Part shown: one piece after another, positions 956-17,245 of the stretch
Layout of the letters: every line of letters begins with the position of its first letter
Numbering within the stretch: the first letter of the stretch is position 1
Source: Oxalobacter sp.
Lineage (GTDB): Bacteria; Pseudomonadota; Gammaproteobacteria; Burkholderiales; Burkholderiaceae_D
Length of the DNA: 33,315 nt
Direction of reading: 5' to 3'
Assembly (NCBI GenBank): GCA_017524145.1
Contig: JAFWUI010000016.1
Location: 1 to 33,315 of the forward strand
Notes under the pieces: generated by a model
Database searches by the model: none
Told to the model about the DNA's origin: nothing
The model's input: only the letters and a program-made list of their open reading frames with translations
Position numbers and translations under genes: made by a program

Positions 956-1164
956 GCTGCGTCACCTCCCGTCTCAGCAGGCAGTCTCTCGATGATGGCA
1001 GCAACTTTCTGACGGGCGGTTTCCATCCTTTCAAGCAGTTGTTGTTTTTCCTGTCTGAGGGACTCAGCCTGAGCTTTCAGGGAAGCGTTTTCCTGCTTGA
1101 GTGTCTGTGTCAGTGTAACAAGGCCATTGATTTTTTCGGCGAGTAAATCCAGTTCTGAAATCAT
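952..1164 (-). CDS. zapB: ZapB-like coiled-coil division protein
   Basis: This 70-residue protein is almost entirely heptad-patterned coiled coil: [13 protein letters not shown], then [11 protein letters not shown] and [12 protein letters not shown]. It ends in a short Pro/Gly/Ala tail. Small proteins of this kind directly upstream of zapA in betaproteobacteria are annotated as ZapB or as a ZapB-like family, thought to work with ZapA at the Z-ring. The 4-nt overlap with zapA and the shared strand support a joint role. The name is less certain than that of zapA because coiled coils carry little diagnostic sequence. Confidence 0.75.
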
Positions 1165-1211
1165 AGTCGGAAATTCCCTTATTGGTTGCCACGGGTACCT
1201 TGCGGGGATAG

Positions 1212-1240
1212 TTGCATGGCAAGGTTGTGTTGTGTACTAT
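1212..1240 (+). promoter_or_regulatory. Possible sigma70 promoter for cmk
   Basis: TTGCAT (1212-1217), a 17-nt spacer and TACTAT (1235-1240) lie in the divergent zapB/cmk gap. Spacing is ideal but both hexamers match the consensus only in part. Confidence 0.3.
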
Positions 1241-1255
1241 CTATATCGGATTTTA

Positions 1256-1304
1256 CCCTGCCTTTGATGGATATTCTGAATTTTTTTTTAGGCAGGGCTT
1301 TTTT
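1256..1304 (+). promoter_or_regulatory. Terminator-like hairpin in the cmk leader
   Basis: CCCTGCC (1256-1262) pairs with GGCAGGG (1291-1297) across a 28-nt loop and is followed by CTTTTTTC. It sits between the possible promoter at 1212-1240 and the cmk start at 1348. There is no plus-strand gene upstream for it to end, so leader attenuation is conceivable. The loop is long and the stem short. Confidence 0.3.
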
Positions 1305-1347
1305 CAGGTCTGCAGGTTCCAGTCGTTTTCATTTTTGTCTAGTGGTT

Positions 1348-2031
1348 ATGGATTCACAGGAGAATTCCCCTAAAAAAGTAGTTGTCATCACCATTGATGG
1401 CCCAACTGCTTCCGGCAAAGGTACTGTTGCACAACGTGTGGCAGAAAGTCTTGGTTTTCATTATCTGGATTCTGGAGCACTTTACCGTCTGACAGCACTT
1501 TCTGCTTTACAGGCCGACCTGCCGCTTGATGATGTGACTGCCATCGCTGCTTTGGCACAGGAACTGCCCTGTGTTTTCAGGCACGGACGGGTACTGCTTG
1601 CAGGCGAGGATGTGACAGATAAGATCCGGACAGAAGAAGTAGGCAATACAGCTTCAAAGATTGCCGCTTACCAGCCTGTACGTGATGCCTTGAAAGCATT
1701 GCAGGTCAGTTTCCGTCAAGCCCCAGGATTGGTGACAGATGGCAGGGATATGGGAACCGTGATTTTCCCAGATGCTGATTTGAAGGTGTTTCTGACAGCC
1801 GATGTAGCTATCCGTGCTGAAAGACGGTATAAACAGTTGTTGGAAAATGGATTTCCTGCTAATATCGATACTCTTCGCAAAGATTTGGAAGACCGCGATA
1901 AACGTGATTCTGAAAGGAAGTCGTCACCTTTGAGGCCTGCCGCTGATGCAGTGATGTTGGATACGTCATCCTTGGATATCGATGAATCCGTACAGCGGGT
2001 CCTTGATGCTTGCGTAGAGAAAAAGATTTGA
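1348..2031 (+). CDS. cmk: Cytidylate kinase
   Basis: This 227-residue protein is the normal size for Cmk, which phosphorylates CMP and dCMP to the diphosphates using ATP in the cytoplasm. The P-loop is seen as [10 protein letters not shown] (about residues 17-26). Further family signatures are YLDSGALYR and [14 protein letters not shown], which help bind nucleotide. The [16 protein letters not shown] segment is the lid region with the catalytic and phosphate-binding Arg residues. ATG 1348 is preferred because the open frame upstream of it is unrelated to the family. In many relatives aroA precedes cmk; here the divergent zapB-zapA pair does. A terminator and leader hairpins separate it from rpsA. 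Confidence 0.95.
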
Positions 2032-2032
2032 C

Positions 2033-2089
2033 AGCTCCGTCTGGGAGCTTTGTTGGTCCCCAAAAGGCGCAATGTCTTTTGGGTTTTTT
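2033..2089 (+). terminator. cmk terminator
   Basis: A short hairpin AGCTCC/GGAGCT (2033-2049) just after the cmk stop is followed by a stronger one, CCCAAAAG (2059-2066) with CTTTTGGG (2076-2083), then TTTTTT (2084-2089). The second has classic intrinsic-terminator form, suggesting that rpsA is at least partly transcribed separately from cmk. Confidence 0.7.
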
Positions 2090-2097
2090 AACCTGAC

Positions 2098-2121
2098 CCG
2101 GCTGACCTGCAAGGTCACCGG
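2098..2121 (+). promoter_or_regulatory. Hairpin in the rpsA leader
   Basis: CCGG-CTGACCT (2098-2108) pairs with AGGTCA-CCGG (2112-2121), with one bulged base and a tiny loop, ending 20 nt before the rpsA ATG. There is no purine-rich Shine-Dalgarno sequence between it and the start. In E. coli, rpsA also has a weak Shine-Dalgarno and uses leader hairpins for S1-dependent translation and autorepression, so a similar role is plausible here. Confidence 0.4.
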
Positions 2122-2141
2122 CTTTTCGTACTATATTGAAT

Positions 2142-3710
2142 ATGCCTACTGCATCTGTTCCAGAAAAGGAAAGTTTTGCCGCTTTATTTGAAGAATCCCT
2201 CGCACGTCATGACATGCGTTCGGGTGAAGTTATTTCAGCTGAAGTTGTCCGCATCGACCACAATTTTGTAGTTGTCAATGCGGGCTTGAAGTCTGAAGCA
2301 TTCATTCCTATTGATGAATTCAAGAACGACATCGGCGAAATCGAAGTCAATGTCGGTGATTTCGTTTCTGTTGCCATTGAATCCCTTGAAAACGGTTTCG
2401 GTGACACAATCCTGTCCCGTGACAAGGCCAAACGCCTGGCTTCTTGGCTGGCACTTGAAAAAGCCATGGAATCTGGCGAAATCGTTACCGGCGTTGTCAA
2501 CGGCAAGGTCAAGGGAGGCTTGACCGTCCTGACCAATGGCATCCGTGCTTTCCTTCCTGGTTCCCTGGTCGATACCCGCCCAGTGAAAGACACCACCCCT
2601 TATGAAGGCAAGACCCTTGAATTCAAGGTCATCAAACTCGACCGTAAACGTAACAATGTTGTCCTGTCCCGCCGTGCTGTTGTTGAAGCATCTATGGGCG
2701 AAGAACGTGCAAAACTGATGGAAAGCCTGAAGGAAGGTACCATCATCACCGGTATCGTCAAGAACATCACCGACTATGGTGCATTCATTGATTTGGGTGG
2801 TATTGATGGTCTGCTGCACATTACAGACCTGGCATGGCGCCGTGTCCGTCATCCATCTGAAATGCTGACAGTTGGTCAGGAAATCCAGGCAAAAGTCCTG
2901 AAATATGACCAGGAAAAGAACCGTGTTTCCCTGGGCGTCAAGCAGTTGGGCGATGATCCATGGACTGGACTGTCCCGCCGTTATCCTAAAGGTACCCGTC
3001 TGTTTGGAAAGGTCACCAACCTGACCGATTATGGTGCGTTTGTTGAAGTCGAACAGGGTATCGAAGGGTTGGTTCATGTTTCTGAAATGGATTGGACCAA
3101 CAAGAATGTTGCTCCAGGCAAGGTTGTCAAACTGGGTGATGAAGTCGAAGTCATGGTACTTGAAATCGACGAAGAACGCCGCCGCATCAGCCTGGGCATG
3201 AAGCAGTGCAAACCAAATCCATGGGAAGAATTTGCAGAAACCCATAAGAAGGGGGACAAGGTCAAAGGCGCCATCAAGTCCATTACTGACTTTGGTGTTT
3301 TCATCGGACTGCCAGGCAATATCGATGGTTTGGTCCATCTGTCTGACCTGTCTTGGACTGAACCAGGTGAAACAGCTGTCCACAATTTCAAGAAAGGCGA
3401 TGAACTGGAAGCTGTCGTTCTGGCCATTGATGTTGACCGTGAACGCGTTTCCTTGGGCGTCAAGCAGTTGGAAGGCGATCCATTCAGCAATTACATTGCA
3501 ATGAATGAACGTGGTTCCATTGTGACCGGTACTGTCAAATCTGTTGAACCCAAAGGGGCTGTCATCCAGTTGACAGACGATGTCGAAGGTTACCTGCGTG
3601 CTTCTGAAATCTCCAGTGACCGTGTTGAAGATGCGGGATCCCAGCTGAAAGAAGGACAGTCTGTCGATGTGATGATCATCAATATTGACCGTAAGTCCCG
3701 TACCCTGTAG
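2142..3710 (+). CDS. rpsA: Ribosomal protein S1, ended early by an amber codon
   Basis: S1 binds mRNA on the 30S subunit and helps start translation. Starting at ATG 2142 (a TTG lies 6 nt upstream), the frame encodes 522 residues with six S1 repeats. The repeats are marked by phrases such as [41 protein letters not shown] and [21 protein letters not shown]. It stops at TAG 3708-3710, right after NIDRKSRTL. The same frame then continues without interruption for 43 codons to TAA 3840-3842 with a normal S1 ending. An intact protein would be 566 residues. The stop removes the last strand of the sixth S1 repeat and the tail. CAG to TAG would be a one-base change, but the original residue is not known. 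A sequencing error is equally possible. Confidence 0.93.
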
Positions 3711-3842
3711 CTGTCTATCAAAGCCAAGGACCAGCAGGAAACCCAGGCCGCCATCAAGAAGATTCAGGACGATTCTTCCGCAGCTTCTGGCATGACCAGC
3801 CTGGGGGCTCTGTTGAAAGCAAAATTCGACAACAAGCAGTAA
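3711..3842 (+). pseudogene. rpsA: Conserved rpsA 3' end beyond the amber codon
   Basis: This is 43 sense codons in the rpsA frame followed by TAA. The translation begins LSIKAKDQQETQ and ends SLGALLKAKFDNKQ. Both are typical of the C-terminus of proteobacterial S1, where LSIKAKD closes the sixth repeat and LGALLKAK forms the end. There is no start codon or ribosome binding site for separate expression, so it is either the untranslated end of a mutated gene or a readthrough extension. Confidence 0.85.
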
Positions 3843-13084: not shown

Positions 13085-13321
13085 ATGGGAACCATCATTG
13101 TCGGCGGCGGATTGCTCATTGTTGAGGCATTGATTGTCTTCAATATGATCCGCAGGGCACGGCAGGGTAAATCCGCTTTCTGCACCAGTAGCAGTTGTGA
13201 TTGCAGCTGTAGTGCCGGGGTATTCTGCCAGCCTCATCAAAAAACGCAGGAAAAAGAAACATCATCTCCATCCTGTTGCTGTAGTGGCCATGACCCTCAT
13301 CAGAGGCATGCCAAACGGTAG
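13085..13321 (+). CDS. FeoB-associated Cys-rich membrane protein, copy 2
   Basis: This 78-residue paralogue of the preceding protein has the same helix and RR-x-RQGKS stretch, but its tail has diverged. It holds eight Cys (33, 38, 40, 42, 48, 64, 65, 66) with CDCSC and a closing SCCCSGHDPHQRH rich in His. It starts 12 nt after copy 1 with a good ribosome binding site (AAGGAGA) and ends in TAG, a rare stop in this window. The extra Cys/His tail looks metal-binding, an inference. It probably closes the feo transcript; no strong terminator follows. Confidence 0.78.
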   Translation: MGTIIVGGGLLIVEALIVFNMIRRARQGKSAFCTSSSCDCSCSAGVFCQPHQKTQEKETSSPSCCCSGHDPHQRHAKR

Positions 13322-15715: not shown

Positions 15716-17245
15716 ATGTCTTTCCATTTTGACCCATCATCCAAGCGTGACAAGCGGATTCTGGCTCAGAAGACCGCACGTACTTGGCGTCAGATGGTGA
15801 CCTGGGTATTGGCTCCACTGCTGATTGGTATTGCTGGTGTCAGTATGGCGAACATCAGCCGTATCTGCTATGGGATCAATCAATGGATTTATGGGCATCT
15901 GGGATGGGGGGCACTGGTCTATATGCCGGTGGGCTATGCATTGCTGATTTTTGTCAGCCGCCGGTTTTTCCCGGGAACGCAGGGTAGCGGGATTCCCCAG
16001 GCGATTGCGGTGCTTGAGGATCATGATGGAACCAAGAAATCGAACCTGTTGTCTGTCCGGATAGTGATTGGACGGGTACTGTTGCTGATAGGGGGGTTGG
16101 TTATCGGAGCATCAATCGGTCATGAAGGGCCGATGGTGCAGATTGGCGGTTCCATCATGCATATATTTTTCGGTTATGGAACCTTGAAAAGGGCGGAACA
16201 CCGCCAGATGCTGGTATTGGCAGGCAGTGCTGCGGGGATTGCGGCAACATTCAATACACCGATTGGCGGGATTATGTTTGCCATGGAAGAGATGGCAAAG
16301 AAATATGTGTACCGGGGACATAACCAGACAATCTTTACCGTATTGATGTCGGGTTTGGTGTCGCTGGTCATTATGGGCAGTTACACCTATTTCGGTAAGT
16401 ACCATGTTGACTTGGATTTCATCACGCATGTTCCGGCCATTCTGGTATGTGGTTTTGTCGGTGGTCTTTTTGGGGGTGTTTTCAGTCTGTTGGCACAGAA
16501 AACGCCGGATGGATTGCCAGGAAAACTGCGGCGGTTCCTTGCACATCATCCAATGGCTTTTGCAGCGTGCTGTGGTTTGTTGATGGCATGCTTGAGTTTG
16601 GCAACGGATGGTTTGGTCAATGGCACAGGTTATGTGCCGACAAAGATGGCGCTGGAAAGCGAAACTGCCACACATGTCTGGTTCTATGGACCGGCAAAAT
16701 TCATCGGGACATTGCTGACAGCATTATGTGGTCTTCCTGGCGGGTTGTTTGCGCCAACCTTGGCAGTCGGTGGTGGTTTGGGCGATATGGTTTCGCATAT
16801 GCTGCCGGATATAGCACCACACCGGGCGTTGATTATCTTGGTTATGGTTGCGTATCTTTCAGGCCTGACGCAGTCACCGTTGACTGCTTTTGTGATTTCA
16901 ATGGAAATCACAGGCAGTTACGAAATGCTGTTGCCGATGATTGCTGTCTCATTGGTTGCAAATGCAGTTTCAAAGATAGTATGTCCGACATCGTTCTATC
17001 ATAAATTGGCATTGCGGTTTGAAAAAACAGCAGGACCGGCAGGAACAGATGGGGAAGGGGACAAGGAAAAAGCCCATACCGAAGTGACAACAGCCAATCC
17101 TGGACAAGCAGGGGAGACCAATGCAGGAAACCTGCAGGAGGATGAAGATGGCGCGCAGCCTGAACAGGGAGGCACTGGCTTGGATATGAAGGGAACGGGT
17201 ACATCTGCTTCCCAGGAACCGCCAGACCATAGACAGGCAGGATAG
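15716..17245 (+). CDS. ClC-family chloride channel/antiporter
   Basis: This 509-residue polytopic inner-membrane protein moves Cl- and, in most bacterial members, exchanges it for H+. Chloride-binding signatures are GTQGSGIPQA (the GSGIP loop), GASIGHEGPMVQIG (the GxEGP loop with the gating Glu) and LPGGLFAPTLAVGG. MFAMEEM carries a Glu placed like the internal proton-path Glu of E. coli ClcA, favouring an antiporter. After the last helix a tail of about 70 residues from KTAGPAG onward is Gly/Glu/Thr-rich, looks disordered and has no CBS domain. It ends in TAG. It lies after the groEL terminator and converges with fur. Confidence 0.9.
   Translation: MSFHFDPSSKRDKRILAQKTARTWRQMVTWVLAPLLIGIAGVSMANISRICYGINQWIYGHLGWGALVYMPVGYALLIFVSRRFFPGTQGSGIPQAIAVLEDHDGTKKSNLLSVRIVIGRVLLLIGGLVIGASIGHEGPMVQIGGSIMHIFFGYGTLKRAEHRQMLVLAGSAAGIAATFNTPIGGIMFAMEEMAKKYVYRGHNQTIFTVLMSGLVSLVIMGSYTYFGKYHVDLDFITHVPAILVCGFVGGLFGGVFSLLAQKTPDGLPGKLRRFLAHHPMAFAACCGLLMACLSLATDGLVNGTGYVPTKMALESETATHVWFYGPAKFIGTLLTALCGLPGGLFAPTLAVGGGLGDMVSHMLPDIAPHRALIILVMVAYLSGLTQSPLTAFVISMEITGSYEMLLPMIAVSLVANAVSKIVCPTSFYHKLALRFEKTAGPAGTDGEGDKEKAHTEVTTANPGQAGETNAGNLQEDEDGAQPEQGGTGLDMKGTGTSASQEPPDHRQAG

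Follow-up and report, generated by a model that had tools for sequence, protein, structure and literature searches.

An in-frame amber codon near the end of rpsA in an Oxalobacter draft genome reads as an ordinary lone nonsense change

The rpsA gene of the Oxalobacter sp. genome studied here raises the question of how an in-frame TAG inside the gene for ribosomal protein S1 is to be understood: as a true end of the protein, as a codon that is translated through, or as a change that does not represent the cells. The window, that is, the whole stretch of 33,315 nucleotides analysed (C54:1-33315), belongs to a draft genome whose 55 contigs add up to 1.81 Mb and which is 87% complete. In this sequence rpsA opens with ATG at 2142 and meets the TAG at 3708-3710, its codon 523, within ...CGTACCCTG TAG CTGTCTATC..., and translation of 2142-3842 gives 522 residues, the stop, a further 43 residues (LSIKAKDQQETQAAIKKIQDDSSAASGMTSLGALLKAKFDNKQ) and TAA at 3840-3842. 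Without the stop, the S1 encoded here has 566 residues. The original prediction, which had described this TAG and a frame running on to the TAA, is borne out by the sequence, the translation and an S1 search. Codons 1-522 identify the gene as an S1 equivalog with two profiles (NF004954, 952.7 bits against a cut-off of 727; TIGR00717, 663.7 against 577), and the NF004954 match stops at profile position 514 of 560. The S1 search of the genome places the PF00575 match of the sixth repeat at 3510-3722 with one TAG inside it, and the sixth repeat and the C-terminal tail are not complete before the first stop. No second copy of rpsA was seen: of the S1 matches in this genome, 10 in number, six are the repeats of the rpsA in the window and the remaining four lie within longer frames on other contigs. 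From the TAG to the start of the next gene, presumably ihfB-like by its family, there are 144 bases. The coordinates of these features and of other interrupted genes of the same genome are collected in Table 1.

Table 1. Features of the rpsA locus (positions of the window) and other interrupted genes of the genome (positions preceded by a locus handle)
Feature	Position	Strand	Evidence
rpsA codons 1-522, covering repeats 1-5 and the greater part of repeat 6	2142..3707	+	Translation; NCBIfam S1 equivalog NF004954
In-frame TAG, codon 523; Gln (CAA/CAG) in 12/12 congeners	3708..3710	+	Sequence, S1 search, translation, congener alignment
Sixth S1 repeat match, final four residues, 3' of the TAG	3711..3722	+	PF00575 match 3510-3722 with one TAG within
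43-codon rpsA continuation, conserved C-terminal tail, to TAA 3840-3842	3711..3842	+	Translation; relatives; synonymous-only differences from G006
Next gene, presumably ihfB-like, 97 codons	3855..4148	+	ORF list
argD (acetylornithine transaminase), lone TAG at codon 240 of 418	L177:8439-8441, contig C50	+	Scan, orthologues, NCBIfam
waaF (LPS heptosyltransferase II), lone TAG at codon 97 of 342	L185:1336-1338, contig C5	-	Scan, orthologues, NCBIfam
hsdR (type I restriction), TGA interruption	L196:15855-15857, contig C27	-	Scan, NCBIfam
Short, presumably antitoxin-like gene, TGA interruption and altered end relative to G006	L181:3842-3844, contig C50	-	Orthologue comparison
Presumably glutaredoxin-like gene without about 130 bases including the start, relative to G006	L179:13476-13620, contig C50	+	
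Presumably Sel1-type repeat gene, over 1,200 codons, in-frame TGA near the start	L181:12863-12865, contig C50	-	

Comparison with relatives, which had been proposed as a check on the stop, gives a uniform answer: a glutamine codon and an intact tail in all genomes examined. The collections searched hold one genome per species, and the closest named relatives among the matches listed are Oxalobacter. In all 12 same-genus genomes compared, CAA or CAG is aligned to the TAG, and an intact tail follows it. Among the best 80 of at least 573 relatives (named genomes), the aligned codon is CAG in 63 and CAA in 17, and the tail is conserved to its ...LGALLKAK... end; the two sets overlap by at least two genomes and thus represent at most 90 distinct genomes. 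The stop is shared by none of the 12 congeners and none of the 80 other loci (the best 80 of at least 573), so that the stop at the same place in relatives that programmed readthrough would predict is absent from both sets. We also considered whether the frame 3' of the TAG could be open by chance, and rejected this since its 43 residues align with the relatives in both sets, matching the tails of the 12 congeners and the 80 loci.

How long the stop could have been present is indicated by the changes around it. The nearest sister genome, G006, shares 85% DNA identity over 7.7 kb around rpsA, and G005 served as the outgroup for placing changes on branches. The two rpsA genes differ at 147 codons, comprising 144 synonymous differences, two E/D exchanges and the TAG, and after the TAG all 12 codon differences are synonymous. 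On the branch of the window genome itself, all 54 changes counted before the stop and all 6 counted after it are synonymous; the changes without branch placement are 15 synonymous and 5 nonsynonymous before the stop and 2 synonymous after it. In a neutral tail, six synonymous changes out of six would have a probability of about 0.0004 with transitions weighted 3. Judged from these substitutions, the tail is under purifying selection on the branch of the window genome, and the relaxed selection 3' of the stop expected of a pseudogene or an old truncation was not found on this branch (6 synonymous, 0 nonsynonymous). Such synonymous-only changes imply that the stop arose after nearly all of the divergence from G006, that the cells do not have it, or that it is read through. 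The argument of the original prediction that the tail has not decayed thus holds, and can now be put in numbers (12/12 against G006; 6/6 on its own branch).

Another finding that bears on the rpsA stop is that it has company in the same genome. A codon-usage scan for lone stops was applied to the window and 20 further stretches (433 kb) and then to a second sample of 358 kb, with stretches of G006 and G005 as controls, in which no clean interruption was recognised by eye. The 433 kb scan revealed lone stops inside argD (TAG), waaF (TAG) and hsdR (TGA), in each of which both gene halves match NCBIfam names. The argD site is glutamine in the 10 of 12 congeners in which an orthologue was found, the waaF site is lysine (AAA or AAG) in the five congeners with a close orthologue, and the remainder of both genes is intact; the hsdR site is tryptophan in the one relative that covers it, at 43% identity. 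Judged by position, the stops in argD and waaF should disable both genes. On the branch of the window genome the changes after the stop are 13 synonymous to 2 nonsynonymous in argD and 24 to 1 in waaF, and since these ratios point to constraint on the post-stop parts, both stops are recent or false as well. Because argD and waaF of the same genome carry a similar lone TAG, the rpsA stop is less special than first thought. Three further lesions, in genes that we take to be antitoxin-like, glutaredoxin-like and of Sel1 type, are given in Table 1.

Counting codon usage alone produced many false hits, from neighbouring genes in one frame and from antisense frames, and a later filter missed argD, which limits its sensitivity; for these reasons we relied on orthologue comparison instead, enlarged by a third sample (346 kb) used only for this purpose. 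By manual reading against their G006 orthologues, 4 of 281 genes of the window genome, compared over 99,611 aligned residues, are interrupted by an internal stop, namely rpsA, argD and waaF with TAG and the antitoxin-like gene with TGA, while the reverse comparison gave 0 of 287 G006 genes. The difference is not significant (4 versus 0, Fisher p 0.06; 3 versus 0 without the antitoxin-like gene, 0.12). No internal stop was found in G005 among 128 and 129 genes. These counts were reached from 21 stop lines listed for the window genome and 17 for G006, of which 17 and 17 were dropped by eye, either because they fall no later than codon 102 and were taken for over-extended starts or because they fall among the last six codons. 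One G006 ORF of 454 codons, interrupted at codons 50 and 101, likely has such an over-extended start, because it overlaps a long frame on the opposite strand. A two-frame match taken up as a candidate frameshift was rejected because its start is over-extended and begins within the gene before it, and no frameshift-type error was recognised in the orthologue comparison. No further TAG interruption was recognised by eye in the second 358 kb sample, where the filter is of limited sensitivity, or in the enlarged orthologue set, and none of the 24 ABC-transporter matches of the window genome, a small control, has a stop inside.

If stops of this kind come from base errors, other substitutions might carry a trace of them. 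In the 23 genes with identity of at least 0.92, the ratio of nonsynonymous to synonymous changes is 0.108 on this branch (79 to 729) and 0.125 on the G006 branch (101 to 810), and the lack of an excess in these most conserved genes argues against a very poor consensus. In wider sets the ratio is slightly higher on this branch, at 0.177 versus 0.142 for identity 0.90 (34 genes) and 0.250 versus 0.208 for 0.85 (58 genes), with 1074 to 3142 versus 1004 to 3461 over all 104 shared genes. This slight excess may reflect relaxed selection in faster genes, and it neither shows nor excludes base errors in the window genome. By estimate rather than computation, the base-error rate is limited to roughly below 1 in 1000, with 1 in 10,000 still compatible, and we estimate that errors at about this latter rate would be frequent enough to account for the small number of stops. 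The contigs reach 151 kb, which suggests adequate or fair coverage, and the absence of about 130 bases from the glutaredoxin-like gene suggests that this genome also loses genes in ways that have nothing to do with base errors. Among substitutions in the 104 shared genes polarised with G005, C>T and G>A are commoner and A>G and T>C rarer than on the G006 branch, at fourfold sites too. Since both directions shift, this looks like a difference in base composition rather than damage. The two sister genomes drift toward opposite base composition. The waaF TAG, standing in place of AAA or AAG, is no C-to-T change. A literature search for papers on nonsense errors in draft genomes gave none.

Whether UAG could be translated in this organism was considered from its tRNAs, release factors and use of TAG. 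No CUA anticodon was found among the 38 tRNAs detected, all of whose anticodons were read, in a genome that is 87% complete and in which Trp, Phe, Ile and other ordinary tRNAs are also absent. The genes for RF1 and RF2 are open over 362 and 361 codons with no internal stops, and RF1 bears GGQ and PxT-type motifs, so that the loss or change of RF1 that would accompany amber reassignment is not seen. Of 323 long ORFs sampled over 791 kb, 24 terminate in TAG. In the window TAG terminates one of 24 hand-listed gene frames (clc, 15716-17245) and a small Cys-rich ORF, and both ends agree with the earlier statement that TAG is a working stop of these two genes. The Cys-rich ORF (13085-13321, plus strand) lies downstream of a feoB-like gene. 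The base after the rpsA TAG is C, and a stop followed by C is a somewhat leaky context in bacteria; C also follows 5 of the 24 ordinary TAG stops of long ORFs, which makes this context unremarkable. With the codon usage of this genome and a kappa of 3, about 49% of nonsense changes by a single base are expected to yield TAG, and three of three core-gene stops would be TAG by chance in about one case in eight (0.488 cubed). A 32-base pattern across the TAG site had no match in viral contigs.

On balance, the rpsA TAG is best read as an isolated nonsense change of a single base that serves no function. The most likely source, to which we give about an even chance, is an error of the consensus or a minor variant that is not fixed. 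We infer that it does not represent the cells, and that in this species most of them would go on making S1 at its full length of 566 residues. This reading is favoured by the glutamine codon and intact tail in all 12 congeners and all 80 loci, by the constraint on the tail along its own branch, and by the similar lone stops in argD and waaF, with 4 of 281 against 0 of 287 genes interrupted. Against an error speak the lack of significance of this difference (p 0.06), the lack of a nonsynonymous excess in the 23 most conserved genes, the contigs of up to 151 kb, the lack of frameshift-type errors and the real gene loss suggested by the glutaredoxin-like gene. Somewhat short of an even chance, we consider it quite possible that the stop is a real and very recent nonsense allele, at which RF1 would end translation, leaving an S1 of 522 residues from which the last part of repeat 6 and the 43-residue tail are missing. 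The open genes for both release factors and the ordinary use of TAG are in line with this, as are the other interruptions in hsdR, the Sel1-type repeat gene and the glutaredoxin-like gene, but the preservation of the tail in all 12 congeners and all 80 other loci implies that its loss should be selected against, and there is no decay 3' of the stop. E. coli remains viable when domain 6 of rpsA is removed, alone or together with domain 5, though with slower growth and cold sensitivity (PMC3858243), which supports both the recent allele and the earlier remark that forms without the sixth repeat are viable there. A cell with a real rpsA TAG allele could thus live at a cost, and by analogy with E. 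coli lacking domain 6 it probably would live and grow more slowly.

Amber suppression, in which a tRNA reads UAG and rpsA, argD and waaF are all translated through, is in our view very unlikely. Its only positive support as recoding is that all three interrupted core genes carry TAG, with post-stop parts that are still under purifying selection, and about 13% of the genome, with part of its tRNA set (Trp, Phe, Ile and others), is unseen. However, none of the 38 tRNAs has CUA, both release factor genes are open, three TAGs of three are not striking when TAG makes up about 49% of the expected changes, TGA interrupts hsdR, the antitoxin-like gene and the Sel1-type gene (3 TAG and 1 TGA among the 281 orthologous genes by manual reading, with TGA also in hsdR), and no further TAG interruption was recognised in the second sample or the enlarged orthologue set. 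Harder still to credit is the more specific proposal that a tRNA for reading UAG is a recent gain of the lineage, encoded in sequence missing from the assembly, by which the TAGs in rpsA, argD and waaF would be tolerated through translation while RF1 stays intact. The least probable of all, in our judgement, is an old or adaptive truncation, or a programmed readthrough, of S1 in this lineage: the leaky C context could be cited for it, but the stop is absent from all relatives examined, after an old truncation the tail would be expected to show nonsynonymous changes and none was found, and programmed readthrough finds no special context here, given the C after 5 of 24 ordinary TAG stops. Thus, of the recent event, error or readthrough favoured by the original prediction, the first two stand, while readthrough has gained no support (0/38 tRNAs with CUA, RF1 and RF2 open, 0/12 congeners sharing the stop).

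What follows from the locus differs among these readings. Should the stop be nothing more than an error or recent mutation, it calls for caution, as draft genomes can hold lone stops in genes of essential type that should not be taken for recoding. If the three core-gene TAGs were truly translated through, this would be natural amber tolerance in a bacterium with RF1, and a new UAG-reading tRNA would be an early step toward loosening the amber codon in a bacterium with intact RF1.

In comparison with known systems, the gene agrees with the six-domain S1 of Proteobacteria (NF004954 and TIGR00717) in identity and six-repeat layout, with a C-terminal tail as in its Oxalobacter relatives, and differs from it by one in-frame TAG inside the last repeat; repeat 6 matches the solved structures of E. 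coli S1 up to the second-last residue before the stop. The engineered E. coli rpsA genes without domain 6 or domains 5-6 (PMC3858243) are alike in that a C-terminal truncation of S1 is compatible with life, but there whole domains were removed in the laboratory, whereas here most of domain 6 stays and the allele is putative. The rpsA stop is an ordinary lone nonsense change. Point-nonsense pseudogenes of the ordinary sort, like base errors in draft genomes, consist of a single base change with an undecayed remainder and are scattered over unrelated genes, and the same pattern is seen here, except that it hits a usually essential gene.
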